Assembly: GCA_019454045.1 (NCBI GenBank)
Contig: SKCR01034774.1
Coordinates: 62,001-126,000, forward strand
Length of the DNA: 64,000 bases
Direction of reading: 5' to 3'
Source of the DNA: Zanthoxylum bungeanum
Taxonomy: Eukaryota > Streptophyta > Magnoliopsida > Sapindales > Rutaceae
Every line of letters begins with the position of its first letter. The first letter of the stretch is position 1. Shown here piece after piece: positions 1,199 through 64,000 of this stretch. The notes beneath the pieces are model-generated. The model had not been told where the DNA came from, searched no databases, and saw nothing but the letters and a program-made list of their open reading frames with translations. The position numbers and the translations under genes were made by a program.

Positions 1199-2260
1199 TG
1201 AGGAAGACTCAAATGCTAAGGAGGGGCATAATTGGTAGTTTACTTAGCCAAAAATAGATAACAGGGGCCTAAGGGCTCGGATAGACAAACATAATTCGAC
1301 AAAAGGAATAGAACCCATTATAAGGAGGGGTTCATGCAAGGAGTGAGTGCTGATGACGAAACAAGTTAGGATAACAACCCGACCTAAAGAAGAAGTACTG
1401 AATTTAGGTTTGTTTGAGTATTTGTGAAAATCGACCCAGATGGTCTATGGTTAGCAACCTGACCTGGTTGAAGAGGTTAGAGTGAGTTTTGATCAGTATC
1501 ATCCACCTCGGTATGCTGACTCGAGGAGCGAGATGGGACACAGACCAATTTACGCTAGAGTCAAGTGACGTATGCCCTAAAGTGAGAAGATACCCTTCTA
1601 GAAGACTATGATGGCTATGGGAAAGCAGTGGGTCACCGTGAAAGTAGCCCCTGCCAGCCATTATAGGGCAGTGCAATGTTAGAGAAGTGGCTGAGCAGAG
1701 CCGCCATAGGCCAGTGCAGTGACATGGCAAATGACTGAATTGATTAGCCGAATTATGAGTAGTTGAGGAGAGTTGTTACTGTAATGATGATAATATGACA
1801 TGAGTTGATGTCATGAGTGGTAGTGGATTTGGCAGCCTATATAAAGGGGTTGAATTCTTAGGTTTATGTGTGAGCAAATTTTACATCTCAACACTTAGAG
1901 AGAAGACAAGAGCAAAAAATCTAGTGATAAAAAGAGAAAGCAGGTCAGCACCCGACCACTTGAGAGAATTGTAACGGGCTAGTGTAAGACCTAAGGAGTT
2001 GTAAACTCTTTGTAAGTTCATTTTCTCACTTGTAGCTCGGGTCGGACTTGACCCCGAGGAAGAAATAAAATACACCTAATTTCTATGTGGACGTAGGTTG
2101 GAGCCACTCTCCGCCGAACCACGTAAACTCTATGTTTTCTTATATGCTTGCTAAATTTCCTTTTGGTTCAGTGCTAATCAAACAAATTCACTACTGATGG
2201 AGGTTTATTTTAGGAGTTAATTTATCATTTTTCCCTTTAAATGAGAAATAAATGTCAACA
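1199..2260 (+). mobile_element. LTR of a degenerate Ty3/gypsy element
   Basis: The segment has the anatomy of a plus-strand LTR. A TATA-like cctatataaagg lies near 1837-1848, followed by a purine-rich transcribed part and an AATAAA-like stretch near 2063. It ends in CA at 2260, directly before a primer-binding-site-like sequence. The 5' boundary (TG at 1199) is a guess, because no second copy exists in the window to fix it. The 108-codon antisense frame inside it does not resemble a protein I know. Confidence 0.55.
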
Positions 2261-39371: not shown

Positions 39372-40920
39372 AAGTAAGGTTTAGGCTAAATTGGTTGGAT
39401 CCAATTGGGCCCAAAACCGTTTCCATAAAGTCCAAATGCGACTAATGGACCTAAATTATTTAATTGGGCCTAATTGGCCTAAATTGGTTTCTAGGCTTAT
39501 GGGGTTATTCCTTGATTGGGCTTTGGTTATTGGGTTTGACCCAAGTTTACCAAAAGTCCACGCCTTAAAGAAAATAATTGAAAGCCCATTGGACTTTAAT
39601 TAAATTAATGTTGGACGTTAATCGGGCTTTGAGACCCGTAACGATTAAATTTGGAATTTAAGTCGTAAAGTTTCGTCAAATAAAGTGTAGTACTTAATTT
39701 GGAATTAAATAGCGAATTAGTATTAAATAAATATTAAATTGTATTTAATGTTGTAGTTTAATTTAATTCAAGAATTCGTACTTTGAGTACTTATTCGCAA
39801 AACGAGTTGGACTCGCGAAAAATCAAATCGTTGTTTAAACATTGGATGGTCATTAATTATCAGATTAATAAATTGGATTAGATTGATTGATAACATGCTT
39901 GTGTGAATACATGGTTGCGATGCATGAATAATGTATATCGGATGTATATTAGATGGGTGGGGCAATTTTGGAAATTGTTGTAATAAATTTAGAATTTATT
40001 AATTGGACCTGCGTGTCCAGCCTATTACCTCCATACTCTTTGTATTTCTCTTCTCACCTATTCCCCTAAATGTAAATGAGGTTTCTTTAGAAGTGTTATG
40101 TAACGGGTAGAAGTAATACGTGTGCTAGCGGGAGAGAGGAAAGAGAGAGATTTGATCTAGGATCAATGTGTTAAGTATCCATCCACATATAATTATTATT
40201 TTATTTTACGCGCCTTATTATGTGTTTAGAATGCATGTTTAAGGGTGTGTGAAGATGAGACCTTAACAAAGATAATAAATTGGTTGCCAATTTGCACGCG
40301 AAAAACCCTCACAAAATATTAAGCGTTTTTCCTTCCATTGAGTGATTCTTACTCAAGATCTAAGACTGGCATTGGTTTGTTGGCCAAAGTCAAGACCTTT
40401 GTCCGTTGAGGATGTGTTTGAATCACCAAGGCTTTGTTCCATATCGGTGTCTTGTCCAAGTTGTGGTTTGTTGGCCAAAGTCAAGACCACTTCTTGTCTA
40501 TCGACATTGATTACGAAGCTTTCCTTGGTCAATGGGTTACGCTTAACTGGGATCACTAAGTTTGTTGTGTCAAAGCCAATGCTTAGTTGATTCAGAGGAA
40601 AAATGTTAGGTAATATATTGGATATATTGGCATATATAAGATATATGTTTCGGACTTGGATGTCCCCCTACTGGATCTAGGAATTGGATGGGATCCAATT
40701 GATCTTAGAGATCTACCTAGTTAATTATCATACAATTTGTTGGCCAAAGTCAAGATTGTGTGATATTTAACGGGATCCTAGCCCACTAGGAAACACGGTT
40801 TCCCGAGTACTCGACAGAGGGTTAGAGGCTCGCCGAAAAATAGTGGGAGGCAAGTATTAAATTTGCAATATTCGTTTAGTAACTTGCCATACGCGCTCAT
40901 TTCAAATTATTTCGTTGAAT
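39372..40920 (+). other. C4 leader, second part
   Basis: Resumes the C4 leader after C5. ttggccaaagtcaag is at 40380, 40471 and 40740. No coding frame. Confidence 0.75.
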
Positions 40921-41936
40921 AAATTATTTATTAGTTGTACTAATAATTAATGTTGTTTTAATAAACAGTTGGACTTATTCAAACTATTTCAATTAATAGT
41001 TGATTTTATAATTGGATTATAGTAATCAATATAATTGGACTATAATAATCATTATAATGAATAGTACCTAAAATCGTTGATTAAATAGTTGGACTATTAG
41101 AATCAAGATAAAATTGAAAGATTAGTGTTTAAAACATAATCCTGGGTGAAAAATGTTTAAACGATTTTAATTTTCAAATTGGGAATAAAATTTCAGGATG
41201 GTCCTGGAAACTAATAAGTTACTTTATTTGATAAAATAACATCTTAAGCCTAAGCCAGGAGTTAAGCAAATAAGTGGAACATGATCTTTGGAATATTCAT
41301 GTGATGATAACTTTAGTGCTTAATCCATTAAACTTGCCAAATGGACTCCTTAATTTCTTTGTCAGAACTAAGGATTAGATCCTTAAAGTATAATAATGAA
41401 ATTGAAGGATATTCATAAATCTATATTTAGATTTTAGAAGTACTAAAATTGCAATAGAAAACTCTTGGAGAGTTAATGGCTATTCTCAAGGAGACAAAGT
41501 CAAAGTTTGCAATAAGGCAAGTAGCGCAAGGCGTACCTTACTTTGACATTCCAGAAGGCCAAGGTTTGGCCAAAGGCTTCTGGGGTGTGTAAAGGGGCAA
41601 ATGTAAAATCATTATAATATTCTGGGAAGATAAAGGACATATCCCAAAATATCTGCCTAAATTGTGGCAAACGGGTTCGCGGAAGCGTGACTGCCATTTG
41701 AACAAAGCAGACATGAAGGAATTGAAGACGAGCAAGGCTTTGACTTCAAATATGTTTGTCATAAATATGTTCACTACTAGTATTAAAATTGGATTTTAAA
41801 TACTTAGTGTGATACATAAATATGTACTGATGTGCAGAATCTACTATGAGCAGGATACTGACATCAGTTGAGATTTATCTGCGAATCGGAAATGGGAGGA
41901 AAGTCGCTGTTTTAACCGTAGATACCTAACTTTAGA
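40921..41936 (+). pseudogene. C4 decayed gag and start of protease
   Basis: Parallels 33900-34870 of C5. It lacks the gag ATG (aatcattataatgaatagta, ~41047), carries a decayed zinc knuckle near 41655-41690 (tctgcctaaattgtggcaaa), and stops in early protease. Confidence 0.75.
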
Positions 41937-42820: not shown

Positions 42821-44772
42821 TGTTGGGTTTCTATTAGGTCCCAATGATCAAATCAAGCAATGAAACATATGTGAATACTCGTAAAAGCATGGCGGAATCA
42901 TACTTACAACGATCAGATTTGGCGATGCGACGAACACAAAAATTCTTTTCCTCCTCCATGAAGCTCTCGACAGTGAGCAGATTTTTGTCCTCCAAAATTT
43001 CGGCCATGGTGATCCACCAAGCTCCAAGCTTTGTGTTGTGATTCCATGCTCATGGGTGGGTTTCCCTATCATCTTCATACTACTTCTAAAGGGTGCTAGC
43101 ACTTCGGAAATTTTGCTGCAAAACTTCCTATGCATCTCCTACATCTCACGGCCCCTTGGGCGTGAGAGAGGGAAGAAGGAAGAAGAGAGAGTGCGTTGTA
43201 AAAGGTGATTTCCAAATTCAAAATAAAATTGAATGATATACCAAATCCTTGATTTGGTAAAAGTCATTCAACATTTACACACTTGAGTGTTTTACACTCT
43301 TTCACCAAATAACAACTTCCATCACTTAAAAGCAACCAAGTTGACTAGTTGATGTGACGCTTGATGTGGCTTGTGGGCCGCACTTAAATTCGCAATATGA
43401 GTGCGCCCGCAAACACTCCCGGGCTCGGGTTCGCTAATTCCGAATTAACGAATTTTCCGTTGCGACGTAATTAAATAATTATGCATAGCAAAATCACTAT
43501 TCACATCGCTAACGAATTAATTCTAAATTAACTCGTTCGCCCGAATTAAAATCTATTTTCAATTCCGCGTCGAAATCTAATTTCGTATAATATATCGAAT
43601 ATATTATTTTATCGATTAATTCCAAATTAATCGTTTTCTCTCTTTAATAAATATTTTATCCCAGATAAAATATCTCCGTAATTAATCCCAGATTAATTTT
43701 CTCTCTCATCTAATTAATCCCAGATTAATAAAGTGCGAGTCATACGTCATCGGTGAATCTTCGGGAAGCGAACCATGAGATCCTCGGATATGTTGGCAGT
43801 AAATACGGTCGTCGGACTATCCGAACACGTACGTACCTAGTACTACGTTTTTACCGATTTAGAAGACATGGTTGGCTTCTAGCAAAGCACCGTGCCTACC
43901 CAATTCTCTAGAAATATTCTTACTGGAATATGTGATCTATATCAGGCGTATTATACGTAGTATTGCGTATATCGATCCAGTATCGGATGTCACGTGCAAG
44001 GCCTGGGGCTGGAAATGTGTCTGCCCCGTACGAATCACATATCGGATCTCTGGTAACTAGTCTCTATATCGGATAATCATGACCTAGTTATATTATCCGA
44101 TGACTGCAGTACATAAGAGAACTAGTTCCGTATCCTATGTGATCATCATCTCCACTATGACTGGAGTGATACTTCCATCTCGACATCACACCCAATACAC
44201 TACGATTCTCAATATACCCAGAAGAGGCGTACATAGAACCTGTTAAAGCCCTGGACGACCAAAACCAAAGTATATTGATTGTCGCAAGTATTAGCGGTGC
44301 AAGTCTCAGGTTAACACCAAATACACCTACCCTGATTTGGACTTCCATAGGCACATAGTCATACTACCAATGGAATTCTGAGGGGTCTATCCAGAGCGAA
44401 GCTGTTTCCGTACCATCGGTGAACACAACCTCCTATTACACTTGCATGAGTAACCTATACCCAAATATATGAGAACTATGTCGTTATGCTCCCACAACGC
44501 GCACAAGTGTAATACTAGTCTATTCCGCATTATCGATGTCCAGTCTCGATAATACTACGACTAGGGATATTTAATGATTAAACCTTTGTGGGTTGATACT
44601 GTCTCATATCTTATCAATCCAGAACTAATTATATGGACCTTCTATCATTTATACATCTTGGTAATCTAATTACAAATGATAAAAGGGCAATTTCCTTTGT
44701 CACATAGTTAATTTGTACAACAACACCATGATTTGTACAAATAGTGATGCTATGGGTCATAACTGTCCAACA
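42821..44772 (-). repeat. C1 5' LTR
   Basis: 1952 bp, partner of 12088-14069 with the same terminal sequences. It lacks the ~24-bp insertion found there. The dyad series is at about 43420-43735. Confidence 0.9.
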
Positions 44773-46056
44773 CCATCATCGCCCCTAGCGCTTCGGGTTC
44801 TATAGCCAAATAAAGTACTAAGGGTTTGCCTGGTCTTGGAGGCTTTAAGACAGGAGGTTTCACCAAGTATTCCCTGATCTTGTCGAAAGCTTTTTGGCAT
44901 TGCTCATTCCATTTCACTGGCCGGTCCTTCCTCAGTAATTTGAAGATAGGCTCGCATACTAACGTCAACTTGGCAATGAACCGACTGATGAACTGGATTT
45001 TCCCAAGGAATGCTCTAACTTCTTTCTCTGTCTTCGACGCGGGCATCTCAGTAATCGCTTTGATCTTCTCAGGGTCTACATCTATTTCTCCCATTCCCAC
45101 CGTATGTCCTAACAATTTTCCCGATGTTACTCTGAACACGCACTTCTAGAGATTCAGTCACAGATCATATTTGTCGACTCGTTCAAGGAACTTCTCCAAT
45201 GCTTCTCTGTGTCCGCTTCTTGTCTCCGATTTCACCATCATGTCGTCCACATATACTTCAATCTCCTTATGCATTAAGTCATGGAATAACGTGGTGGCCA
45301 TCCGTTAATAAGTAGCTCCTGTATTCTTAAGTCCAAATGGCATCACTTTGTAGCAATACTACCCCACTCCATGACAAAGGCAGTCTTATGCTTATCTTTT
45401 TCATCCATAAGAACTTGATTATATCCGGAAAACCCATATGCGAACAAGTACATGGCAGATAAAGCCGCACTATCAACTAGCACATCGATATGGGGTAAGG
45501 GAAAATCATCCTTTGGGAAAGCTTTGTTAAGGTCTCTATAATCCACGCACATTCTGACTTTCCTATCTTACTTCGGCACTGGCACAATGTTTGCCAACCA
45601 CTCGAAGTACTTCACTACTTCCAGAAATCCCACGTCTATCTGTTTCTTGACTTCTTCTCTAACCTTCTTAGCCCACTCAGGTCTCATCCTTCGGAGCTTC
45701 TGCTTTACCGGCCTCATGTTCGGATAAGTTGGTATCATGTGTTGGGCGATATTTCTATCCACTCCGGGCATGTCCTCGTAGGACCAGGCGAATACTTTGG
45801 CATATTTGACTAACATCTCCTCTAATTTCTCCCGCTCTTCAGAGGTAACCTCACTTGCATTTAAGACCTCATTGGGGCTTTCAGGCTTGCCAAAGTTAAA
45901 TGCGTTTTTTTTGGTTGAGTTGATGTCAAATATACTCAAGTCGTGCAAGTTGGAAGGAAAAGGCTCAGACAAGTAAGCAAAATGAATGTCTTTATTATTA
46001 GCCAATGCAGGAGTACACTCAAATAAATCAGGGAGATAAATATCTTCATCTTCCAC
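44773..46056 (-). pseudogene. E2 reverse transcriptase
   Basis: Three frames cover the domain: 46056-45568 (SEEREKLEEMLVKYAKVFAW, then the PVKQKLRRMRPEWAKKVREE entry segment), 45552-45343 (CVDYRDLNKAFPKDDFPLPH, then GFSGYNQVLM) and 45139-44773 (TEKEVRAFLGKIQFISRFIA, then CQKAFDKIREYLVKPP). The catalytic YVDD is intact near 45243-45254 (EVYVDDMMVKSE). A frameshift near 45350 and a stop in the GATYQR segment separate the pieces. The last residues, GAMM, join to the RNase H piece at 12087. Confidence 0.88.
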
Positions 46057-46260
46057 AGATGCTTAATCCTCCACAACCGGGTCTTCTTCAGTTTCCTTAC
46101 TTTCCTCGAGGGTCAGGCTCTACAGCTGCATCAGCTCTTATTCCCACTTGCCTTTTTCATTTACAACTTCTCCTATCATCGGTTTCTCGCCCATCACATC
46201 CTAGAAGATCTCAAATCCTGGTACCATGATCCCGTTGACTTCCACTAGTTCAGGCTCTCC
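46057..46260 (-). pseudogene. E2 linker between G-patch-like segment and reverse transcriptase
   Basis: Acidic linker sequence with stops. No domain is recognised. Confidence 0.4.
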
Positions 46261-46524
46261 TTAATTCCCCATTGCTTTCACGAAACATTTTGTCAGCTTC
46301 AACACTTTCTTCTTAGCCTTCGGCTTATCCTCGTCGGACTTGTATCTTAAACCTCTCCTGGTGGTCTGCCCCTTGAAGTCGGGCAATGCTCCTCTATCAC
46401 CTGAGCCTGTGCCTGGCTTGAATTTCATCTTCTCCATGATCCTAGCCACCTTAGGATCTACCCACTCCTCAAAGGTTGCCGACACTTGAAACCTCGTGAA
46501 AGGTTGTATCTCCAAAGCAGCCAC
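46261..46524 (-). pseudogene. E2 G-patch-like segment
   Basis: The frame reads KVARIMEKMKFKPGTGSGDR followed by KGQTTRRGLRYKSDED. It resembles the glycine-rich G-patch that many plant Tat polyproteins carry after the protease; the match is judged by eye. Flanked by stops. Confidence 0.6.
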
Positions 46525-46536
46525 ATCATTGTCTAC

Positions 46537-46983
46537 TTAAGCTCTGATAGTGACAATCTCTCCCCCATACGGAAACTTGATGACCTGAAGAAGAGTGGAG
46601 GGCACGCCCCCAAGCTTGTGAAACCATGGCCCCCCCAATAGCAAAGAAAAAATGGCCGAGATATCAAGCATTGTGAACTCGACCTCATCCTCCATTGGGC
46701 CTACTTTGACCACTGTAGCAAAAGTACCCTCAACTCCTCGCTTGCTATCATCATATGCCTTGATGGTCATATTGGAGGGACTCAGATCTGTTGTCTTCAT
46801 ACCCAACCTCGATAAGATCTTTAAAGGACACACATTGATAAATGAGCCATCATCCACCATTACACAAGACGTTTTCTTACCCATCACTCCAGCTCTTATA
46901 AATAATGGCTTATTATGATTCCTTCCCTCCACCGGGAGTTCTTCCTCAGAAAAGGTTATCACCTGCAAAGCTTCCTTCTGCAC
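46537..46983 (-). pseudogene. E2 aspartic protease
   Basis: 148 codons open. The active-site region reads CVMVDDGSFINVCPLKILSR; Tat proteases usually have DNGS or DSGS, so the second residue differs. The later flap and second hydrophobic-Gly motif (FSLLLGGPWFHKLGGVPSTL) are in place. The protease would cut the gag-pol polyprotein. It is separated from gag by a stop near 46985 and from the G-patch by one near 46537. Confidence 0.8.
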
Positions 46984-46986
46984 CGA

Positions 46987-48627
46987 TCATACAAACATCG
47001 TAGGGTTGGCATCCTCCAGTACTATTATCTTGCTCAAGGCCTCAACCATGGCACGCCTGTGCTCATACGATGCACACAACAACTCCCAAATGCTCAGTTG
47101 TGCTCGTGTCTTCTTCAACTGATGCAGCACTACATCTCCTTCAGCATTATCCCCGTTCTCCACCACTTCTCTACCTTTGGCCAACACCTCCTTGCCTTTC
47201 TCCGCTGTATCACTATAAAAACACCCACTACGTGTCATTCCTTTCACCACCTCTTCATCACTGCTTGAGAAGTCTAGCCAGAAATTCTTCCCCGGCTCCG
47301 TTTCATCCTCACTATTGCTATTCAAAATCCCCAGGCAAAAGGCTTGGTGGTCAAAGGTTCGGAGGACAAGGCTTTCAGGTAGGCCGGAGCTAATCATGTA
47401 GGTAGGTGGTGGGACAGAGTGATAGTTAGGTAGGGGGTTTCTGTGTGTATTGGGTTGTTTTTTTCTGGGTCAGGTATTTTGTGGGAGTCGATGAGGTCTT
47501 GGATTTCATGCCTGAGGCAGACGCAGTTATCGGTGTCATGGCCTTTCTGCTGGTGGTAATGGCAATACATGTTCATATTGAGGTGTGGTGGTAGAGGATT
47601 GGGAAGTGGTCTAGCTTCTAATGGTCTTAGGAGTCATTGTCTCGCCAACTTCTCAAGCACTTTAGATAAATGCCTACCCAGGTTAGAGAAATGCCGGTTT
47701 CTGATGGCGGTAACCTCAGCAAAAACGGGATTGGTACCTGATGGTCCTCCGACAGTCCTCATGTTCAGGCCATAAAACTTCATATTCTATACTTTTTCTT
47801 CCTCAATATCCATGACAGTCTCTCTCAACTGTCGAAAATCAGTAATCATAGAGGTCATCCTCCTCAGTTTTCCATAAATGGAGGGCTTGGTGCCCTTGAT
47901 AATCATCTTGATCTGGTCATTCTCCGAGGGCCGAGTCTGTATCTTCAGAAGCTGGCTTCTCCAGTGATCTACATAAACCTTGAAGCTCTCATCCGGCTTA
48001 TGTTTGGTATTCTCTAAGTCACGAAGTGACAAGTCGATCTCCAAATCCGTGACATATTGGTTCAGAAAGGCCTCTGCCAATGCCCTCCAATCATCATTGA
48101 CCTTCCTCTCAAGGCCATGATACCATACCACGGGTGCTCCCTCAAGCGACATCTCTAACATCTTCTGAACCTGACGCTGTGACAGGCCCACTGAACTCAT
48201 CACAGAAACATATTGTCAGAGATGGACCCTCGAATCCCCGTTCCCATTGAACTTGGCTATGTCAGACATCTTGAACTGAGCGGCAGCTGCTCCTCAAAAG
48301 TCATCACCTCATAGTCTAGCAAATCTTCATGTTTACCCCTCATCTTGCGGGTAACTGATTCTACATGATCTCGAAGTTTCTGCAATTCGGACTGGGACCC
48401 AGCTATCATTCCTGGGCATACTCAGCCACATCATCATCAAAAACAGGGATATCATCACTCAACCTATTCATAGGTTCTTCACGCCTCACATTCTCAGAGC
48501 TTCCCCCAGCGCGGGGCATATCCATATTAGCCATATCGGTGGTCAAAGCTTGCAACTGCTCGGTGACCTTGGTGAGACTAGTCTCCAGCTGATCCATGCG
48601 AGATACCTCGTTCTCTGATTCGCTCAT
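46987..48627 (-). pseudogene. E2 gag
   Basis: Starts at 48627 (MSESENEVSRMDQLETSLTK, a coiled-coil-like N-terminus). The retrotransposon gag domain is at 48203-47787 (GAPVVWYHGLERKVNDDWRA, then AEAFLNQYV and DESFKVYVDHWRSQLLKIQT). A knuckle-like motif follows at 47576-47500 (YCHYHQQKGHDTDNC). The last frame, 47397-46987, is the gag-protease linker. Stops and frameshifts separate the four frames. Gag would form the particle that packages element RNA. Confidence 0.82.
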
Positions 48628-51678: not shown

Positions 51679-51841
51679 CTGTGTTTCACTGTTTTGTCCC
51701 CAAATCACCTCCAGAATGTCCTGAAACTTTATTTATCTACAAAATAACACAAAACACATCAAAATATTCACAAAACTCAAGAAACTATACAAAATATTAT
51801 GTCAAATGAGTGAGAAATAGTGATACATTTACCTCTCATCA
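51430..51841 (-). repeat. E1 3' LTR, proximal part
   Basis: Continues the E1 LTR after E2. In element orientation it starts TGATGAGAGG at 51841, right after gctcgaggactagcaaaatg and gtttgtgcggg, the kind of tract that precedes the 3' LTR in Athila/Tat elements. It contains repeated cgttagca blocks, a gtcgcgacg palindrome and a run of 27 T at 51652-51678. Confidence 0.7.
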
Positions 51842-53174
51842 CCCGCACAAACCTAACATTTTGCTAGTCCTCGAGCAAAAAAATAAAATAAAATAATATA
51901 AACATCTTTAAAACTAAGCCACTTTCGTAGGGATCACGGTTGAATTTAGCGTATGCAACAAGCCTTTAAATCCCTAGGTGTCCCTAGTGGACGAGTTGTA
52001 GTCTCGTGAGGGTTTACAGCAATGATACCCACAAAAATTTTACAAAAGTAAAAATATAGTAAAACTAATGCACACAAAAGCAAAAAGACAAGAGAAAATA
52101 GAATAAAGAAGTTAATGATTAAGCAGGTGAAACTTCTACTTCAAGTTACTAGTTGTTTCTTTCTTTATAAATTACCGAATAAGTAAATTCTCCGTTTATT
52201 TTTACCATTCTTCATATACACAATCAACAAAATATTAATCAACTCATTTTGCCCACAATAGTCATAAGTGCAGTTTAGAAGAGAGTAATATTTTTGTCTT
52301 AATTTTTATCAGAATTCACACCTTTTAGCAGCAATGGAATAGTTTTTCTGATTTTTCTTTCTTTTTGATTTTTTTTTATTTATACACAATATCTTCCATC
52401 TATGTAGCGAGTGTTCGGTCGGTGGCTCCCAAACCAGTTGGCTTTAGGGCACCAGGTGTTAAGACACCCCTACGAACATATTACTTAGACTTCAGATATA
52501 TATATATATATATATAATAATATATTATATATATATATATATATCTATATATTTGCAACATCCTTGATCCATGTAGCGAGCTTTGGGCCAGTGACTCCCC
52601 AACCAGTTTGTTTTAGGGCACTAGGTGTTAAAACACCCCTACGGACTTAATAACTCGGATCTCATACTTTTTTTTTACTCCATTGCCTTTTAAGATGCTT
52701 CCTCCAATTAAACTAGAGCACTGAATATTACAAACTTTTGAAATAAAGCTTATGTCTGTATGTTACCATGCTTGTTGATAATACATGCCAACTGAGCATA
52801 TGAAGATCCATTTTAGTCAGTATTATGGAGAATTCACAAATTAAATAATTTAAAATGAAATAAACAAAAATTAACTTGTTCCGAAATAGGTTTGAGATAT
52901 GTCTCAGGAGTGGAAACTCCTTACACAGCTATCTCTTGCCAATTTCACCCGATTAATCAAATTAAAAACACAAAATATTTTTTTGATTTTTTTGTAAAAT
53001 TTTTTATTTTTTTTTTGAAAAATTTGGAATAAAAACAAAATACAAACAAGATACTAATCAACTATTCCCACCCCCAAACCTAAATGAGACATTGTCCCCA
53101 ATGTCTTAAAAAGTAGAAACTGAGTTTAGAAGATAATACCTGGTTAGCTGAAATTCTACATCTAAATGGGAAAT
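51842..53174 (-). other. E1 3' untranslated region
   Basis: Lies between the LOG-like gene and the 3' LTR. It contains, on the minus strand, gacattggggacaatgtctc followed by a G-rich tract (53066-53105), a phrase common downstream of pol in Athila/Tat elements. No coding frame. Confidence 0.65.
52388..52662. repeat. Direct duplication of ~105 bp flanking a TA microsatellite
   Basis: The block with atgtagcgag, ccagttggctttagggcac and aagacacccctacg at 52388-52495 recurs at 52556-52662 with about 20% differences. Between them, 52496-52552 is an almost pure TA tract with two small interruptions. Confidence 0.75.
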
Positions 53175-53826
53175 TTAAAGGTTAAGATCCAGATTTATCT
53201 GATGCTTCTTACCACGATCATTATCGGACCATTTTATCTTGGAAATGATAGGGTCAATTTGTGGTTCATAGGCTACGATTTGTTCAATTAAATCCTGGGC
53301 AGTTCTGGGAGTGAAGAGGAGTTCTTTTAAAGGTTTTGACACGAACCCATTTCTCCGGGCATCATCAAGAAATACACAAAGAAAATCATAAAATCCATCT
53401 ACGTTGAACAATCCAATTGGTTTCTGGTGTATTTTCAAGTTCGCCCAAGATAGTACTGTAAACATCCATCCAACGTGCCCAAACCACCTGGCAAAGGAAT
53501 AAAAGTATCAGCACGGTTAATCATTTCCACCAGTCATTCAGACATACCTGACACGATCAGTTCTTCTCCGTTTGATGATCCTATAAGATCCGCCTCTGCC
53601 AAGGGTTTTGGATGATTCCCAAAACATGACTGCCTTCATCTTGTACAGCCTTTGAAGCGATCCCCATTAGTCCAAGATTACCTCCGCCATATACCAGGTG
53701 CATATTCTTCTCAGCTATGACTCGTCCCAATTCATGTGCTGCTGCTACGTATTGTAGTTTAACACCAACACTAGTACCGTAAACACACACAGATGTTTTC
53801 AACTCGTCTTCTTAAAATGGCTTCCA
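53175..53826 (-). pseudogene. LOG-like cytokinin riboside 5'-monophosphate phosphoribohydrolase, captured by E1
   Basis: LOG enzymes release active cytokinin bases from nucleotide precursors in one step. Here the minus strand carries the family order without introns: a MEAILRRRVENICV start (53826), AAAHELGRVIAEKNMHLVYG then GGNLGLMGIASKAV (to 53640), PKPLAEADLIGSSNGEEL (~53625-53570), and the signature LPGGLGTLD (53494-53467), matching the family motif PGGxGTxxE. Then come FTVLSWANLKIHQKPIGLFN and VDGFYDFLCVFLDDARRNGF to the TAA near 53175. Total length is about 215 codons, close to the family norm. Lesions are a frameshift near 53795, another near 53620, a TGA at 53534-53536, and a one-base frameshift right after the signature, near 53465, costing its glutamate. 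Plant LOG genes normally have several introns, so this is probably a captured cDNA. It sits between integrase and 3' LTR. Confidence 0.82.
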
Positions 53827-54110
53827 TTTTTATTTGGATGCCTTCAAAAGTGCAATGATGAATTGAATTTATAACACCTGAAAAGGGTGAGTAAAAATTA
53901 TAGCACTAGTACTTGCCAAATGACAATTACTAGTTAAACAGTAAAATAAATCGTGATAGTAAAAAAGGTATGGATCTTGTCGAAGAAAATAAAAGAAAAT
54001 AACAAAACAAATCACAATTATTAGGAAAAGACAAAGAGATATAATATTTACAATAATTTACAGCTTGATTGACGTCTATGCGTCAGGGACAAGATTCCCA
54101 TCCAATTTTC
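53827..54110 (-). other. E1 spacer between accessory frame and LOG-like gene
   Basis: AT-rich sequence without a frame or recognised motif. Confidence 0.5.
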
Positions 54111-54623
54111 TTATAAATTGGCAAATAGGGTTTTGTGAGTCAGATTCCTGAGACTTAGCTGTTGTCTTTCTTTTCGGAATTGTGTATGTAATTTACGGAT
54201 GGCTATATGAACATATCCACTGGGATGCATCTCAAAAGTCGAAGATATATCATCTAAAGACTCTTTACTCAAGCCATCCCTAATAAATTTAATTTTATCT
54301 TCGCGATTATCAGACACCATTCCTAAAAAACGACAACGAGTATTGCAATTCCAGCGTGCACATTTGTAACAAACACCCATTTGCTTAGCTCTACGTTTCT
54401 TTGCATAGGTGATTCTTCCAAAACCAGGCAGATGTGAAATAAAAGAGTCAGAAGACTCACTTGCCAATCAGACCCGTGCTTCAATAATCCAACGAATGTT
54501 AGTTGGAATACCTTTGATTATCAGTAGTCTCATCCGTTTCAAGTGAGCTTTGTAGACTTTCATCAGAGATTTTTGAGGGAGAGAAGGAAATTGCTTGTGA
54601 AGATTTGCGAGAGCTTCTTCCAT
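54111..54623 (-). pseudogene. E1 accessory frame of unknown function with a Cys cluster
   Basis: From ATG at 54623 the frame runs 170 codons to 54111 with a single TGA at 54468-54470. It begins MEEALANLHKQFPSLPQKSL and is rich in basic residues. A cysteine cluster CYKCARWNCNTRC (CX2CX4CX3C) lies at about 54372-54334 and could bind zinc. A later part, RDGLSKESLDDISSTFEMHP, looks helical. I do not recognise the family. It follows the integrase in the same orientation, where some plant retrotransposons carry extra genes. The single stop over 170 codons suggests it was protein-coding until recently. Confidence 0.6.
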
Positions 54624-54759
54624 CGTGAAATGACTTTACCTGAAAATTAAACACACAAAAATAAAACACACCAGATCATAATATATACACAAATTGTATG
54701 GGTTGCCTCTCTGCGAGCGCTAATTTTAACATCGTCAGCAAGACGCGACTTCTCGAATG

Positions 54760-56002
54760 TTAGGCTGGATCTGAAAGTGTGACACTTTCTTTTTGTCGCC
54801 CAAATGATTCTCCCCAGTAGTGCTTGACACGCTGATTGTTAACTTTGAATGTGTTGTTGGTGTTGGGATCCAGTAACTCAACAACTCCATATGGTAAAAC
54901 CTGAGTGATCATAAAAGGACCTGACCTCCTTGATTTCAACTTTCCAGGGAAAAGTTTCAACCTTGAGTTGTACAAAAACACCTGATGCCTTGGTTCCAAC
55001 TATATGTGCAATATTTTTTGATCATGCCATTTCTTGGTATTTTCTTTGTTCAATCTGGCATTCTCATAAGCCTGTAGGAAAACTTCCTCCAATTCGTTGA
55101 GTTGGTGAAGTCTTTTCTCTCCTGCAGCTTGTGGATCAAGATTTAACTTATTCAGTGCCTAGTACGTCATGTGTTCAAGCTCAACTGGCAGATGGCATGC
55201 TTTCCCAAACACCATTCGATATAGGGACATACCAATGGGTGTCTTGTAAGCTGTTCGGTAGGCCCATAATGCGTCAACTAGTTTTATTGACCAGTCCCTC
55301 CTTGTTGATCCAACAGTTCTCTCCAAGATTCTTTTGATTTCTCTGTTTGAAACTTCAACCTATCCATTTGACTGTGGATGATAAGCAGTGGCAACCTTGT
55401 GAGTAACTCCGTATTTGGATAGGAGTGCATCAAAGTTTCTGTTGCAAAAATGTGAGCCACCATCACTGATAATTGCCCAATGTGTTCCGAAGTGAGTGAA
55501 AATATTCTTTTTAAGGAACTTGATCACCACTTTTGAATTGTTGGATGGCAGTACAATTGCTTTAACCCATTTGGAGACGTAGTCTTCAACAACCAGGATG
55601 TACAGGTTTCCGAATGATGGAACAAAGGGTCCCATGAAATCTATACCCCACACATCGAATATCTCCATTTTCCAGAATGTTTTGCAATGATCCTTCATTT
55701 ATCCTTGAAATATTCCCCGTTCTCTGGCACCTGTCACATTGAAGAGTAAAAAGATAAGCATATTTAAAAAGAGTGGGCCAGAATAAACCTGATTATAGGA
55801 CTTTGGCTGCAGTTTTATTCCTGCTGAAGTGTCCACCATATGGTGATGAATGACAGTGTTGCAAAACACCGTTGACCTTCTCATGTGGAACACAACGCCT
55901 CAGTAATTGATCAGCACAACGTTTGAACAGGTACGGCTCATCCCAAACATAGTGCTTGACTTCATTAAAGAACTTCTTTCGTTGCTGAGTTGTCCATTCC
56001 AA
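54760..56002 (-). pseudogene. E1 integrase
   Basis: The zinc-binding part is at 56002-55793 (VPHEKVNGVLQHCHSSPYGG). The catalytic core at 55698-55360 has the first two aspartates ([19 protein letters not shown]) and TAYHPQSNG just before the catalytic Glu segment, which is reached after a CAG-to-TAG stop ([13 protein letters not shown]). The C-terminal domain at 54999-54760 reads LKSRRSGPFMITQVLPYGVV. Stops near 55700, 55360, 55160 and 55000 break it. Sequence type is Athila. Confidence 0.87.
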
Positions 56003-57893
56003 CGGTCATTTTCCCGAAACTATGTAGTTGACATAGTCAGCATACCAATGGACATCATGATGTTTGATGGCAAACATCAGTTCATCTGGAAAAGGTTCTT
56101 TGATTGTTAGTTCTTTGCCAGCTGTTTCTCCATTCTCAAGCCTCGATAAATGATCTGCCACCTGATTTCTGTCCCTTTCATGTCTCTGATCTCCACATCA
56201 AATTCTTGCAGAAGAAGTATCCAATGGATCAATCAAGGTTTGTCATCTTTCTTCATGATCAAGTATTTGATTGCTGAATGATCTGTGTAGACCACCACTT
56301 TGGGACCCAATAGATAGGAGCGGAATTTGTCAAAAGCGTAGACAACTGTAAGCAACTCATTTTCAGTGGTTGTGTAGTTGAGTTGAGCTTCATTCAAAGT
56401 TCTGTTGGAGTAGTAAATGGTGTGGAAAATCATTGTTTTTCGTTATCCCAAAACTGCACCTACAGCAAAATCACTAGCGTCACACATTACCTCAAATGGA
56501 AGGGTCCAGTCTGGTGCTAAAATGATAGGTGCATAATAAGCTTCTGTTTTAAGATCTCAAAAGCTTCCTGACATTCTTTGGTAATGTTGAAAGGCACATC
56601 CTTCTCCAGAAGATTTCACAGAGGTTTAGCAATCTTGGAAAAGTCTTTGATAAATCTCCTATAAAAACCAGCATGTCCGAGAAAGCTCCGAATTCCTTTG
56701 ACTGATGTCGGTGGAGGTAGTTTTTCAATTGTTTCAATCTTTACTTTGTCTACCTTGATTCCCTTTTGTGAGATCCGGTGTTCAAGAACAATGCCTTCCT
56801 GCACCATGAAGTGGCTTTTCTCCCAGTTGAGTACCAGGTCTGTATCTTCGCATCTTTGTAATACATGTTCCAGATTTTGTAAGCAATGGTCAAAAGAGTC
56901 TCCAAACACAAAGAAGTCATCCATAAACACCTTCATACTCTGCTCCAGCATGTCTGAGAAGATAGCCATCATGCAACGTTGAAAGGTGGCAGAGGTATTA
57001 CATAATCCAAATGGCATCATGCGGAATGCAAAAGTACCATACGGACATGTAAAAGTGGTTTTCTCCTGATCTTTTAGGGCGATAACAATCTGATTGTACC
57101 CTGAATATCCATCCAGAAAACAATAGAACTCATGTCCTGCCAGTCTGTCTAGCAACTAATCAATGAATGGCAACGGAAAATGGTCTTTCCTTGTTGATTT
57201 GTTGAGCTTCCGATAGTCCATACAAACTCTCTATCCAGTCACAGTTCTTGTTGGAATCAGCTCGTTCTTTTCATTTGTCACTATATTTATTCCTCATTTC
57301 TTTGGTACACACTGCATAGGACTCACCCAAGTGTTGTCTGAGATGGGGTAAATGATGCCAGCATCCAACCATTTGATGATTTATTTCTTCACGACTTCCT
57401 TCATGATTGAATTGAGTCTCCATTCATGCTCCACTGTGGGTTTGTACTCATCATTCATCAGAATCTTGTGCATGCAAAATGATGGACTAATTACTCGAAT
57501 GTCTGTTATAGTCCTGCCAATGGCTCTTTTGTGTTCTCGTAATAATCTCAGTAACTTTTCTTCCTGCTCCAATGTTAGTGAAGAAGAAATAATAATAGGT
57601 AATTCAGAAGAGTTTCCAAGAAATACATACCTGAGATGGCTCGGAAGTAATTTCAGCTCCTGCTGTGGTGGTTCTTTAATCGAAGGCTTGATTCGATCTT
57701 TCTTTGGCAGTTCCAGGCTTTCTATTTCTGGTGTCACTTTGAAACGAAATAGCTTGTCAAAATAGTTGATACATTCCAGAATTTCAGCGTCTAGCTTACT
57801 GTCAGTCATATTGGTGATGCAAGCTGCAAGTTTGTCCGCGGGAGTTGTATCAGTATCCTGAACGATACTATCAACAACATCAATTCTGAACAC
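56003..57893 (-). pseudogene. E1 reverse transcriptase and RNase H
   Basis: 57893-57381 is the entry segment (KLLPSHLRYVFLGNSSELPI, then LLREHKRAIGRTI). The next ~200 bp carry the start of the polymerase fingers with at least three stops (YPISDNTWVSPMQCVPKK then a stop). 57155-56616 is the palm: FLDGYSGYNQIVIALKDQEK and the active site FMDDF (the family consensus has xxDD, so both aspartates are kept), then RSFLGHAGFYRRFIKDFSKI. RNase H is at 56433-56233 ([20 protein letters not shown] and [12 protein letters not shown]). Several nonsense codons inactivate the protein. Confidence 0.88.
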
Positions 57894-58306
57894 TTCTTTT
57901 TTTCATCACTCGGGAATATCATGTCTTTGTGAAACAATAAAGGTAACTTGTATTAGTCTTGAACTTTCATGGTTAGTTCTTCTTTTTGTTACATTCATAC
58001 TCAAACAGTGACCTGTCACCAAGAATGTCTCCTAATAATGATAGGCATAATCTTTGTCTTCCTCCATTTCAAGATGATAATGAAATCCGCGGGGAGAATG
58101 AGTTTTTCAACTTTTGACCAGCATATCTTCAAACAAACCTCTGAAATACGAGCGTTCGATCAGAAAATTGCAAGAGACTGAGGTAGGAATTGGACTCTCA
58201 ATTGGTAGTTTCCTATAAATAGAAAAAAGGCACAAATTAACCACTTGCACCTAAGTCACATCAAGCTTACCATGTAGTGTTCTCCAGGTGCATGGGACAG
58301 TGAAAC
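57894..58306 (-). pseudogene. E1 protease remnant
   Basis: On the minus strand, just upstream of reverse transcriptase, frameshifted fragments read like the end of an Athila protease (LQFSDRTLV, then an LILPADFII-like stretch in another frame). The segment ends at GAAAC, where C6 begins. Confidence 0.5.
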
Positions 58307-60258
58307 TGTTAGACATTATGTCCCATAGCGTCACTGTTTGTAAATGATATTGTATTATTGTACAAAATTAACTATGTGATAATGAATTGCCTTTTGCCGT
58401 TTTGTAATGTTATTTACTTTGATATATAAATGGCGAAAGTCCATATGATTAGTACCGGATTGAGATGATATGAGACAGTATCAATCCATAAAGGTTTAAT
58501 CATTAAATATCCCTAGTCGTAGTATTATCGAGATCGGACATCGATAATGCGGAATAGACTAGTATTGCGCTTGTGCACGTTGTGAGGGCACAACGGCATA
58601 GTTCTCATATATTTAAGTATTGGATACTTATGCAAGTGCGATAGGAGGTTGTGTTTTACCGATGGTACGGAAAACAGCTTCGCTCTGGATAGACCCCGCG
58701 GAATCCCATTGGTAGTATGTCTACGTGTCTATGGGAGGCCGCATCAAGGTAGGTGTATATGGTCTTAACCTGAGACTTACATCGCTAGTACTTGCGACAA
58801 TCGGTAAACTTTGGTTTTGGTGGTTGGGGACCTTAACCGGTTCTGTGTACACCTCTTCTGGGTTTATCGAGAATCGTAGTGTACTGGATGTAATGTCAAG
58901 ATGGAAGTATCGCTTCAGACATATGGAGGCGATGATCACGCAGGACACAGAACTAGTACTCTATAAAAGGTTGCAACCGTCGGGACAATATGACCAGGTC
59001 AGGATTGTCCGATTTAAAGAGACTAGTTGCTTGATGTCCGATATATGTTTCGTACGGGGCAGACACATCTCCAGCCCCAGGCCTAGCATGTGATCATCCG
59101 ATACTGGATCGATGTACGCAATACTACGGTATACTACGCTTGATACAGATCTTATATTCCTATAAGAATATTTCTGGAGAATTGGGTAGGCATGGCGCTT
59201 TGCTAGAAGCCAACCTTGTCTTGTGAATCGGTATAGACGTAGTACGAGGTACGTACGTGTTCGGATTATCCGACGACCGGATTTACTGCCAAAATATCCG
59301 GAGATCTCTTGGGTCGCTTCCTGAAGATTCACCTATGATATTTGATTCGGACTTAATTAATCTTGGATTAATTACGGAGAAACTTTATCTCGGATAAAGT
59401 GCCTAGTTTAGAGAGAGAACGATTAATTTGGAATTAATCGACAAAATTATTATATTCGATATAATAATCGAAATTCGATTTCGACGCGAAATTAAAATTA
59501 GATTTTAATTCGGGCAAACGAGTTAATTTAGAATTAATTCGTAAGCGACGTAAATAATAATTTCGCTAGGAGCGATTATTTATTTAAATCCGATTTAATT
59601 AACGTCGCGACGCTAGCTCGGTATTTCGGAAATATCGAACCCGAACGCGTGAGTGGACGTGGGCCCACTTTCATTGGGAAACGTGTGGGGCCCACATGAC
59701 ACTTGTCATTGATATGGCATTGCATGTTAATAGTGTACAAAACACTCTAAGGCATTGCATGGTGATAGTGTGCATTTCACTCAAAGGCTTTGCATGGAGT
59801 TTGAGTGTTTGACACTCTAAGCCATTGCATGGTTTATGTCATAGATATTATTAATTTAATAATAAATTATACATAAATATAAATTGATTTTTGGTAATAC
59901 AAGATAATTAATCAAGTCTTACACAAAAATTCTCTCTTCTCTCTCAAATTGCCGTGAACACCATTGTCAAGGGCAAGGAAGATTTGATCTTCCATTCTCC
60001 ATTTTGCTAGCACAAGCAAGGGATCAAAAGAGGTGATAGGGAAACCATCAAAGAGCTTGGAATAAAAAAGCTTGGAGCTTCAAGTCTTCTTCCTCCTCTT
60101 GGCCGAATCCTCCACCACTTGGAGCTTCTACCTTGATCTTCTATCTCATCACAAGGATTGTAAGTATGATTCCGCCATACTTCATGTTTAAATATATATT
60201 CTTTATAGTATTTCACATGCTTAATCTTTGTTTGGGACCTATATAATAGAAACCAACA
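58307..60258 (+). repeat. C6 5' LTR
   Basis: 1952 bp, tgttagacattatgtccc...aataga then aaccaaca. A series of seven dyads occupies 59351-59539. The antisense 123-codon frame at 58961-59332 is discussed under findings and not taken as a gene. Confidence 0.9.
59878..59960 (+). promoter_or_regulatory. Candidate C6 LTR promoter
   Basis: TATAAA at 59878-59883, followed about 50 bp later by a pyrimidine-rich tract (tctctcttctctctcaaatt, 59930). The same arrangement occurs in the C3 LTR near 25268 and 25315. No start site can be proven from sequence. Confidence 0.4.
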
Positions 60259-60271: not shown

Positions 60272-62628
60272 TAGGTTTAAGCATGAAATACTTTAGGTTA
60301 AAATTTGGGTAAAATTGATTGAAGCATGTTCTTGTGAAATTTGATGAATGAGTATGCTTATATGTATGTTAAATGACATTATATGAAATCAATTTTATGA
60401 AAAATGCATTGGATGATTTTTCCCCAAAATTTCTACCTTGGCCGAATGGGTGTGATAAATTGATTGAAGCATGTTCTTATGAAATTTGATGAATAAGTAT
60501 GCTTGCATGTGTATAGAATGATATTACATGGAATCAATTTTATGAAAAATGCATTGGATGATTTTTCCCCAATATATTCACCTTGGCCGAATGGCATGAT
60601 GAAATTGATATAAGCATGTTCTTATGAAATTTGATTAATAAGTATGCTTGCATGTGTATAACATGATGTTATATGGAATCAATTTCATGAAAAATGCATT
60701 GGATGATTTTTCCCCAAATCCATGCCTTGGCCGAATGTATTACTACTTGGAGTGGTTGATATTTTTTGTGTATAAGATCATTGGATGACTTAGAACGTAT
60801 AGGACGTAGATTAGTAATTCAATCGGATTGAAAAACAAATCGACACAAAAAACTCACCTTGGCCGAATCAACAAGGACATGAAATGGAGTTGATTTTTTG
60901 ATAAAATTAATGTTGGACATTTATTTTGCAAAATACATGATTAATAAATTAAATGGGTATTTTTGAAATATTTGATTTAATGTATTAATCTTGGTATTAC
61001 ACTTTAATTAATTGGACTTTAATGTTTGGAATATTAAAATTTAATTAATGGGCTTTAATAATTTAATTGGGCCTTATGGGCTTAAAATTGGTTTTATGGC
61101 ACTTAAGGGTGATTCCTTATTTGGGCTTGGTAATTGGGTTTGACCCACATTGACCAAAGCCCAAGCCTTAATAAATCAATTCTAAGTCCATTTGACTTGA
61201 ATTAAATTCAACATTGGATGTTAGTTGGGCTTTGAGGCCCAATAAGATTAGATTTAGAATCTAAGTCTTTAAAGCACATTAAAAGTGTAAACATTTAATT
61301 TGGAATTAAATGAATGAATTAGTATTGAATACGTATTAAATCAGATTTAATAAGTAGTTCGATATAATTCGCGAATTCGTACCTTATGTACTTATTCTCA
61401 ATAGAGTTGGACTCGCGCAAAAATCAAACCGTTGTTTGAACATTGGATGATCACTTAAACAAAGACTAATTAATTGGATTAGATTGGTTGTAAAAGCATG
61501 TCTTGTTTGAATATATATGTATGTGATGAATGAATAGTGTATATCGGATGGATATTAGAAGGGAAAGGGTAATTTTAGAAATTATTGTAAATTTGGAATT
61601 TATAAATTGGACCTGCGTGTCCAGCCTTATCTCTTTATCTCTTTGTATTCTCTTCTCACCTAATTCCCCTCAATGTAAATGAGGTTTCTCTTATTGTATT
61701 ATGTAATTGGGTAGTAGTAGAATAGTGCTAGCGGGGAGAGAGAAAGGGAGGAGTGATTTGTTCTAGGAACAAGTTGTTTATATATCCATCCGCATATCAC
61801 TATTAATTTACTTTACGCGCTTTATGATGTTTTAGAAGCATGCTTAAGGGTGTATGATGATGAGACCTAACAAAGATAAATAATTGGTTGCCAATTACGC
61901 GAAAATCCCTCAATTTATATTAAGCGAATATCCTTCCATTGAATGATTCTTGTTCAAGATCCGAAATTGGCATTGGTTTGTTTTTGACCAAAGTCAAGAC
62001 CTTTGTCAATCAAGGATGTACTTGAATCATGAGAGTTTTGTTGCATATCGGTGTCTTGTCCAAATCGTGATTTTTATTGGCCAAAGTCAAGGTCACTTTT
62101 TGTCCAATGACATTGATTACGAAACTTTCCTCGTCAATGGGTCCCGCTTAACTGGAATCATTAGGTTTGTTTTTGGCCAAAGCCATGGCCTAGATGATTC
62201 GGAGGATATGGTTAGGAAAATGTATTAGATACATTGACATATGTATTAGATATATATGTTTCGGACTTGGATGTCCACCTAACCGGATCTAGGAATTGGA
62301 TGAGATCCAATTGATCATAGAGATCTACCTAAGTTAAATAGCATGCAATTTTTATTGGCCAAAGTCAGGGTTGTATGTTATTTAACGGGATCCTAGCCCG
62401 CTAGGAAATGCGATTTCCCGAGTTCTCTACAGAGGGTTGGAGACTTGAAGAAAATAGTGGGAGGCTATTATTGAATTTGCAATTTCGTTCAGATAATTAG
62501 CCTTACACGTCTTTCAAAATTATTTCGTCAATATTTTTTAGTTGGACTAATATATTGTTATTTTACTTGTAACAGTTTGACTGTACCCATAACATCGTTG
62601 ACTTTATAGTTGGACTATAGTCGTCAAG
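60272..62628 (+). other. C6 leader, about 2.4 kb
   Basis: No coding frame of note. It contains a 145-bp triplication (listed next) and ttggccaaagtcaag-type motifs at 62078 (exact) and, as variants, near 61985, 62172 and 62355. Many copia elements have leaders of a few hundred bases, so this one is long. Confidence 0.75.
60316..60740. repeat. 145-bp tandem triplication in the C6 leader
   Basis: Units start at 60316, 60461 and 60606 with tgattgaagcatgttctt and end with ccttggccgaatg. C4 and C5 have only one copy of the corresponding block. Confidence 0.85.
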
Positions 62629-64000
62629 ATGACTGGCAAAGGTAATATCCGCGACATAATCATGGGCGATAATGTCTTCAAAGGGACAAACTTTGCCGAC
62701 TGGGAAATGAACCTCAAGATTGTGCTTGGGGCTGAGAGGGTACTGTATACTATTCAGAGGCCTCTCCCGCCTAAACCCACTGAGCCACTGGAGCTAGAGT
62801 TATGGAGAACTCATAGTGATGATTGTGACCAAGCTCAGTCAATTATGCTAGCTGCAATGACTCAGCATTTCAGACGCCAAAATAGGGACTTGGATCCCTA
62901 TAACATGATGGCAAGATTGCGTGATCTTCACCGCACTAACAAGCGGATGAAGAGGTACGAGCTAGTAAGGAAACTCTTCCGCTCCCGGATGACAGACGGC
63001 GCATCAGTTGAGGCCCACGGGACTCAAATGATCGCTGACATTGATGAGTTAGCCAATATGGGCATTGTCTTGGAGGCAGAGCTGACGATTGATATGATAT
63101 TACAATCGCTGCCCGATACTTGGAAACAAATCATCATCAACTACAAGTTGATGGATACTGACGACACTCTCGGAGAGTTGTTGTCCGTACTGAAGGAGTC
63201 CGAAAAGGAACTCCTAAAGGGGAGCAAGCGCGAGGCGCATTATGCATCGACCTCTCATGCGCCAAGGGCCGGGCCCAAGGCAATTGGAGGTGCGAGGAAG
63301 AAAAGTTTCAAGAAGAAGGGCAAAGGCAAGTTGACAGTGGCTTCTAGGAAGCCAAAGGACAAATCTCGCGACATCTGCCTAAACTGCGGCAAGAGGGGTC
63401 ACTGGAAACGTGACTGCCGAATGGGCATTGGGCAGAGGGAGGATATCAAGGCTAGCAAGGCTATCGCCTCTGGTATGTTTGTCATTGAGATAAATATGAA
63501 TACTTCTAGTTTTAAAAATTGGATTTTTGATTCTGGTTGTGGTGCTCATATTTGTACTGATGTGCAGGATCTGCATGATAGCAGGGTGCTGGCGTCAGGG
63601 GAGATGGATCTACGGGTCGGAAACGGAACACCTGTTGCTGTTTTGGCCGTAGGGACTTTTGTTTTAGAACTGCCCTCAGGGCATGTACTTAAACTTATGA
63701 ACTGTTATTTTGTACCTAGTTTAACTAGGAATATTATATCTGTATCCTTGTTAACCCAGCAGGGTTACACTTTTGTATTCAGAAACACTGGGTGTTATTT
63801 ATATCTGAATGATGCAGAAATTTGCACAGCTGTTGCAAATAACGGTCTTTATATTTTGAATATAAATGAATCTCCTAAAATGACAAACAAAAGGCTCAAA
63901 AGGAGTAATCTAAAAGATGAAGCTTATATATGGCATTGTCGTCTAGGACACATCAACAAGACTCGCATATCCACACTCTCGAAGAGTGGGTACTTGGACG
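62629..64000 (+). CDS. C6 gag-pol polyprotein, N-terminal 457 codons
   Basis: From ATG at 62629 the frame is open to the window edge; I found no stop when translating it. Residues 1-~230 are a copia gag (MTGKGNIRDIIMGDN, NFADWEMNLKIVLGAERVLY, LGELLSVLKESEKELLKG). A basic stretch is followed by the zinc knuckle CLNCGKRGHWKRDC (250-263), which binds element RNA. The protease active site is WIFDSGCGAHIC with Asp at about 301. A pre-integrase motif WHCRLGHINKTRI begins at about 435. Integrase, reverse transcriptase and RNase H are expected beyond 64000. The start is supported by the leader ending here and by alignment with the ATG-less sister copies. G/C-richer third positions contrast with the AT-rich decayed copies. 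Confidence 0.92.
   Translation, partial: MTGKGNIRDIIMGDNVFKGTNFADWEMNLKIVLGAERVLYTIQRPLPPKPTEPLELELWRTHSDDCDQAQSIMLAAMTQHFRRQNRDLDPYNMMARLRDLHRTNKRMKRYELVRKLFRSRMTDGASVEAHGTQMIADIDELANMGIVLEAELTIDMILQSLPDTWKQIIINYKLMDTDDTLGELLSVLKESEKELLKGSKREAHYASTSHAPRAGPKAIGGARKKSFKKKGKGKLTVASRKPKDKSRDICLNCGKRGHWKRDCRMGIGQREDIKASKAIASGMFVIEINMNTSSFKNWIFDSGCGAHICTDVQDLHDSRVLASGEMDLRVGNGTPVAVLAVGTFVLELPSGHVLKLMNCYFVPSLTRNIISVSLLTQQGYTFVFRNTGCYLYLNDAEICTAVANNGLYILNINESPKMTNKRLKRSNLKDEAYIWHCRLGHINKTRISTLSKSGYLD

Follow-up and report, generated by a model that had tools for sequence, protein, structure and literature searches.

The window, i.e., the entire stretch of 64,000 nucleotides of Zanthoxylum bungeanum DNA that was analyzed, harbors on its minus strand the remains of an LTR retrotransposon, and between the integrase and the 3' LTR of this element lies an intronless LOG-type sequence (Table 1). 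Both the sequence and its placement in pol orientation had been put forward in the original prediction and were borne out: PF03641 was matched on the minus strand, 217 codons could be aligned, and the order in this direction is protease-like region, RT, integrase core, integrase C-terminus, extra ORF, LOG and 3' LTR (~51841). The RT precedes the rve domain, as in a Ty3/gypsy LTR retrotransposon. The LOG match and the gene order are far beyond chance. The element is Athila-like; the PBS TGGCGCCGTTGC of the family and the 3' position of the extra ORF would presumably fit this lineage.

The blocks of the LOG sequence are distributed across three frames. Relative to an open copy elsewhere in the same genome, which it matches at 88% over all 217 codons, the remnant shows indels of +1, -1 and -1 and no introns, and a single piece of 110 amino acids on its own still matched PF03641 (E = 3.9e-11). 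A stop stands in place of the catalytic Arg and a frameshift strikes the catalytic Glu; the copy is dead, as had been proposed, and represents a dead member of its family that has RT and integrase. By the comparisons made within the window neither a 5' LTR nor a gag of this element was found, and positions 57384-57902 of the protease-to-RT region gave no Pfam hit.

Table 1. Features of the LOG-bearing element in the window.
Feature	Position	Strand	Remarks
3' LTR start (TGATGAG...)	51732..51841	-	only these 110 bp matched the LTR of copy C11755
Non-coding stretch, LOG to 3' LTR	51848..53160	-	homologous to its counterpart in C11755
LOG gene remnant	53178..53831	-	217 codons, broken by three 1-nt frameshifts and by a stop at codon 98
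Extra ORF, carlavirus-type nucleic-acid-binding (cysteine-rich) domain	54132..54635	-	one stop in this copy; PF01623
Integrase C-terminal part	54946..55203	-	downstream of the integrase core
Integrase core (rve)	55363..55698	-	PF00665, 3e-14
Reverse transcriptase	56619..57155	-	PF00078, 6.2e-21
Protease-to-RT region	57384..58241	-	57819-58241 resembles a related element's protease part (39%)

Copy Number and Structure of the Element Family

The genome searched comprised 3.96 Gb on 51,709 contigs. The degenerate active-site pattern PGG[LF]GT[LF]EE was detected at 18,366 places (9148 + 9218) and its reversed control at none. The pattern M-S-E-R-L-x-E-M, the degenerate codons of which also allow C/T/R/W in the second position, S instead of R and F instead of L, was detected at 23,700 places (11,852 + 11,848), with one match of the reversed control. 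In a six-frame search all 150 scored candidates, out of 47,331 first-look candidates, matched PF03641 without an intron, 149 of them along the entire domain and one along positions 1-130. The assembly probably holds several haplotypes, and the number of LOG-element copies per haplotype is therefore probably lower than the pattern counts; L005 and L006, located on two contigs, carry identical LOG-bearing ORFs, and the 30 host-type matches described below comprise 12 distinct strings by our own count.

In three copies examined (C11755, C18558 and C29888) LOG is located between both LTRs, which are 2.0-2.2 kb in length. Target duplications are GCTGT in C11755 and ATTAC in C18558, and in C29888 the duplication is unclear with 3/5 bases alike. 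The LTR-LTR distances (K2P) of 0.020, 0.046 and 0.039, respectively, date these elements to 0.8-1.8 My at an assumed substitution rate of 1.3e-8 per site per year. The insert is thus shared by other copies, a possibility raised in the original prediction. An independent retrocopy private to the window copy was rejected, because the patterns match at thousands of places and LOG is enclosed by the LTRs of a single element in each of these three copies.

Copies of type A are arranged as gag, protease, integrase C-terminus, extra ORF and LOG. In all seven type A copies examined the protease is joined directly to the integrase C-terminus, and no RT or integrase core was detected between them. In type B, LOG is preceded by different ORFs, none of which significantly matched a Pfam family, and between the LTRs of C11755, the copy of this type with both LTRs, there were no gag, RT or integrase matches. 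The LOGs of the two types are intermingled in the LOG tree, so that modules have been exchanged between the types; recombination with autonomous elements could thus explain why LOG is intact in defective ones.

One pair of the type B ORFs is located at L013:4842-5231 and 1520-2242 (-). One ORF of type B carries C-X2-C-X4-H-X4-C, which we take to resemble a gag zinc knuckle, and the other is acidic. Comparison of 137383-139000 with 146537-148144 in C18558 (L015/L016) revealed an old-type LOG of ~71% to the young one, downstream of which the LOG end, the non-coding part and the LTR start are 88% identical to those of a young element. This mosaic points to an exchange between subfamilies, by recombination or by template switching.

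Selection on the Captured LOG Gene

In plant LTR retrotransposons, captured genes are usually regarded as fleeting. The selection on the captured LOG can be followed in single-base codon variants of 48 copies, which were split by the number of copies carrying them; the duplicate L006 and copies with at most 100 mapped codons (at most 120 for the LOG tree) were left out. Singletons amounted to N163/S74, at a neutral N/S expectation of ~3.3, and variants present in six or more copies to N10/S31 (Fisher p = 1.2e-7). After correction for change type (context), the omega-like ratio was 0.78, 0.50, 0.49 and 0.15 for variants in 1, 2-3, 4-5 and 6+ copies. The non-coding flank read as codons exhibited no such fall (singletons N83/S20, six or more copies N16/S3). 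A LOG-blind sample, composed of the 20 nearest relatives of C11755 besides C11755 itself, chosen by non-coding sequence from 40 scored, yielded N100/S31 for singletons versus N26/S22 for shared variants (p = 0.0055). Transversions alone, a weaker test, gave p = 0.07 over all copies. Since the common variants are mostly synonymous and the singletons near-neutral, the data support purifying selection on the LOG frame during the spread of the family, and the kind of constraint for which a Ka/Ks check among copies had been suggested is seen.

Comparison of subfamilies gave dN/dS of 0.18-0.25 at dS 0.9-1.4 between old and young ones, 0.34 between two old copies, and 0.32 and 0.53 between the window copy and two young copies. 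For LOG, pairwise pN/pS pooled over 28 copies that had been selected mainly on their domain score was 0.26, and over 19 copies selected on non-coding sequence it was 0.61; when translated in codons, the same flank gave 1.2 and 3.3 in those two sets and is therefore a noisy control. Pooled over the seven type A copies, pN/pS amounted to 0.35 (gag), 0.44 (protease together with the integrase end), 0.39 (extra ORF) and 0.40 (LOG). A higher conservation of LOG than of its flanks in DNA, suggested by local BLAST, was not upheld by global comparison (87-89% versus 79-91%, no extra conservation overall), and the constraint is therefore visible only as N/S.

An alternative is that LOG was transduced once and has hitch-hiked ever since, the open frames reflecting recent amplification from a few masters. 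The young LTRs of the three dated elements would agree with such a passenger, as would the LOG-blind sample, in which 19/20 frames are broken, interrupted or truncated and the single open frame of 217 codons is without its usual stop. Amino-acid changes are, however, depleted among the common variants, dN/dS between old and young subfamilies is about 0.2, and in the listed active-site and M-S-E-R-L matches the same residues are written with many synonymous codons. Passenger cargo is therefore disfavored and appears very unlikely to us.

Active Site and Prenyl Pocket

The catalytic residues proposed for LOG are an Arg and a Glu, and the prenyl-group site described in the work on CgLOG consists of Met, His, Lys, Glu and Trp, which are identical in AtLOG3, OsLOG and CpLOG (PMC4979012). 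An open element copy matches PF03641 across the whole domain (1-131 of 131, E = 4.2e-37), and the closest solved structure is that of AtLOG3 (203-209 bits). In the readable copies the catalytic residues are widely retained (R98 in 43/47, E121 in 46/46), G114 is present in 47/47, and the motif PGGxGTxxE together with the catalytic Arg/Glu is found across the element copies and lost in the window copy. The pocket presents itself differently: Met (47/48) and Trp (46/48) are kept, and three of its five residues have been exchanged in virtually every copy read, namely H96 by S in 48/48, K99 by L in 46/47 and by Q in one, and E124 by I, T or N in 47/47, mostly by I/T in the young ones. Two old copies carry S, L or I, and T at the H/K/E sites, one of them with Gln replacing the catalytic Arg. 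The combination H-R-K and E-W was found in all seven host LOGs read, in both Arabidopsis LOGs, in the Pseudomonas LOG and in 78 of 80 bacterial LOGs, these being the best 80 of at least 576 confirmed matches and the remaining two unreadable by the search expression.

From the kept catalytic Arg/Glu and the changed pocket we infer that the element LOG would be a phosphoribohydrolase with changed specificity. An ordinary cytokinin-activating enzyme, which would supply more active cytokinin wherever the element is transcribed and thus lead to division and more element-bearing cells, could account for the match over the full domain, for the retained Arg/Glu and PGGxGTxxE and for the closeness to AtLOG3. 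Its pocket H/K/E, present in every readable plant and bacterial LOG considered here, is replaced in the element, which makes this explanation unlikely. The motif counts, the LTR-bounded copies and the selection signal thus support the proposal that the element spread a LOG gene, and did so to thousands of loci, whereas the altered pocket renders its cytokinin-activating role doubtful; a cytokinin-activating cargo is, as originally worded, unsupported.

The altered pocket could also mean that enzyme activity was lost and another role kept. The C-terminal tail GKRRRINLDLNL (L001-L066) consists of a basic stretch followed by LxLxL, which we take to be an EAR-like motif. At least 41 of the 57 tails read, one locus being counted twice, end in NLDLNL, and the two old copies end in KKRRLDTDLNR or KKRILDIDLNR. 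A nucleotide-binding or regulatory protein directed by its tail KRRRINLDLNL to the nucleus and to the recruitment of a co-repressor would be in line with these endings and with the loss of the prenyl pocket. Both catalytic residues are nevertheless retained, LxLxL motifs often arise by chance, and to read the tail as EAR-like and nuclear is an assumption of ours, so that we regard a LOG which is no longer an enzyme as improbable.

Host LOG Genes and Origin of the Capture

The host-type pattern M-H-[QE]-R-K-A-x-M was found at 30 places in the genome (control 0), and an earlier host-LOG pattern which spanned an intron had given no genome matches. Gene structure was read in nine of the 30 matches. 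Eight of these nine regions are LOG genes with introns, as predicted for plant LOG genes (L067 and L071 are nearly the same gene), and for the ninth, L073, a further LOG exon was not found. The element LOGs constitute one clade (UFBoot 100). They share 40-50% identity with the host LOGs that were read, and the latter share 61-90% with AtLOG3. In a tree to which bacterial LOGs were added, the LOGs of the element, of plants and of Caldilineaceae group together (UFBoot 100). Within this group the element LOG stands beside Caldilineaceae and not beside plants, with support of 86 when one Caldilineaceae sequence and 60 when three were used; trees in which it joins the plants or stands apart were not rejected (AU p 0.42-0.52).

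A recent bacterial donor was rejected: the best bacterial LOGs among the matches listed reach 48% identity and come no closer than plant LOGs. Either the capture is old or the gene has evolved rapidly. As to the suggestion that a host LOG mRNA was reverse transcribed into the element, the LOG tree is compatible with plant and with Caldilineaceae neighbors. A frame without introns agrees with a spliced mRNA but also with a bacterial gene; a host mRNA may plausibly have been the source.

The Neighboring Carlavirus-Type ORF

Part of the LOG-element family carries a carlavirus-type ORF. In one open copy it matched PF05515 with 29.8-29.9 bits (cut-off 23, E = 7e-7) and in another with 26.9 bits (cut-off 23, E 5.8e-6), and in one of these two copies PF01623 was above its cut-off as well. 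The piece 54114-54467 of the window scored 26.1 for PF01623, above the cut-off of 20.9 (8.7e-6), and 20.7 for PF05515, just below the cut-off of 23 (4.3e-4). The extra ORF contains the basic motif YAKKRRAK and, in addition, four cysteines that are arranged as a C-X2-C-X4-C-X3-C finger in all five aligned sequences, two of which are identical. Finger spacing varies among viruses.

The basic motif beside a four-cysteine finger and the PF05515 or PF01623 match above cut-off, depending on the copy, are shared with the cysteine-rich proteins of carlaviruses and betaflexiviruses, e.g., CVB p12. Unlike these proteins, the extra ORF resides in an LTR retrotransposon, is longer (~183 amino acids) and differs in spacing from the PVH finger, C-X2-C-X9-C-X4-C (PMC3689765). 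CVB p12 is described as being a transcription factor as well and as causing hyperplasia (PMC3689765, PMC12172455, PMC7588395). Scans of viral contigs detected no relatives of the CRP-type ORF or of LOG, and a scan of a phage collection none of the CRP-type ORF.

Proposed Role of the LOG Gene in the Element

Our preferred reading, to which we assign a probability of roughly 60%, is that an Athila-like lineage kept a captured LOG as a selected accessory gene with a re-specified pocket, which helps the element via the host cell. Long ago, the coding sequence of a LOG, spliced and devoid of introns, would have been taken in by an Athila-like Ty3/gypsy lineage, which retained this accessory gene between its integrase and 3' LTR. 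Part of the family also carries the ORF with the carlavirus nucleic-acid-binding/silencing-suppressor domain. The accessory LOG would have been selected during multiplication to thousands of loci, derivatives without RT and integrase included. As judged from the sequence, its product is probably a live nucleoside-5'-monophosphate phosphoribohydrolase, the base pocket of which may now favor something other than the usual isopentenyladenine-type nucleotides. This product would condition the host cell in the element's favor by a nucleotide or hormone signal, and the zinc-finger ORF may act alongside it, against silencing or on transcription.

A more far-reaching version, which we offer tentatively and hold to be unlikely, sees a host-manipulation cassette of two genes, in which LOG would have been re-tooled for a new nucleotide, e.g., an immune or stress signal, and would be joined by a carlavirus-type silencing-suppressor/transcription-factor protein, LOG being selected even without RT and integrase. 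LOG elements devoid of RT and integrase would then find an analog in replication-defective transforming retroviruses with captured growth genes.

Under the preferred reading of a selected accessory gene, an enzyme gene was captured, kept by selection at thousands of loci and changed consistently in its pocket, beside a gene of a viral silencing-suppressor type. Whether a transposon gains from altering the hormone or nucleotide signals of its host thereby becomes testable, and the element LOG provides a variant with what may be a natural re-design of the cytokinin pocket.

Relation to Known Elements and Enzymes

With the LONELY GUY enzymes AtLOG3 (2A33), AtLOG8 (1YDH) and CgLOG (5ITS) the element LOG has the domain, PGGxGTxxE, the Arg/Glu pair and the pocket Met and Trp in common; it differs from them in the replaced pocket His/Lys/Glu, the lack of introns and the tail KRRRINLDLNL. 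The abstract by Steinbauerova and colleagues is said to report two Athila-like elements with an extra ORF similar to LOGL4. For Citrus sinensis, C. clementina and Populus trichocarpa, consensus sequences of LTR retrotransposons were described that contain a YgdH domain, otherwise present in LONELY GUY proteins (PMC9289625), in agreement with Steinbauerova et al. (2011, Genetica 139:1543). Elements of this kind are therefore already known. As judged by their description, the Citrus and Populus elements resemble those reported here in carrying a LOG-type domain within a plant LTR retrotransposon; the section dealing with them contains neither copy numbers in the genomes nor an analysis of selection, and mentions no altered pocket or carlavirus-type ORF (PMC9289625). 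Within the largely non-subscription literature covered on LONELY GUY/LOGL4 or carlavirus CRP in connection with retrotransposons, scale, selection, pocket change and a CRP-type neighbor are undescribed. In this scope we found no report of the copy scale, of the selection, of the loss of pocket H/K/E with the catalytic pair kept or of the carlavirus-type neighbor. Gypsy elements of Phalaenopsis with an AlkB-type RNA demethylase represent another case of Ty3/gypsy elements fixing a host-like enzyme as extra ORF, with a different enzyme, element lineage and host (PMC9289625).

Further Repeats in the Window

Remains of a second, different retrotransposon are located at 44753-48215 (-) and comprise gag (PF03732) and RNase H (PF17919). 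The stretches 43468-44642 and 58435-59586 form an inverted repeat, 85-89% complementary and 14-16 kb apart, i.e., one repeat present twice in opposite orientation; the two copies are perhaps insertions that cut the gag of the LOG element. Direct repeats at 40060-41109 and 61663-62630, 75-94% identical at a constant spacing of ~21.6 kb, may represent a pair of LTRs or one LTR present twice, and the second of them is followed by an open frame of 466 amino acids at 62602-63999 (+). At 60312-60739 a stretch of 138 nt occurs three times in tandem with a spacing of 145 bp.
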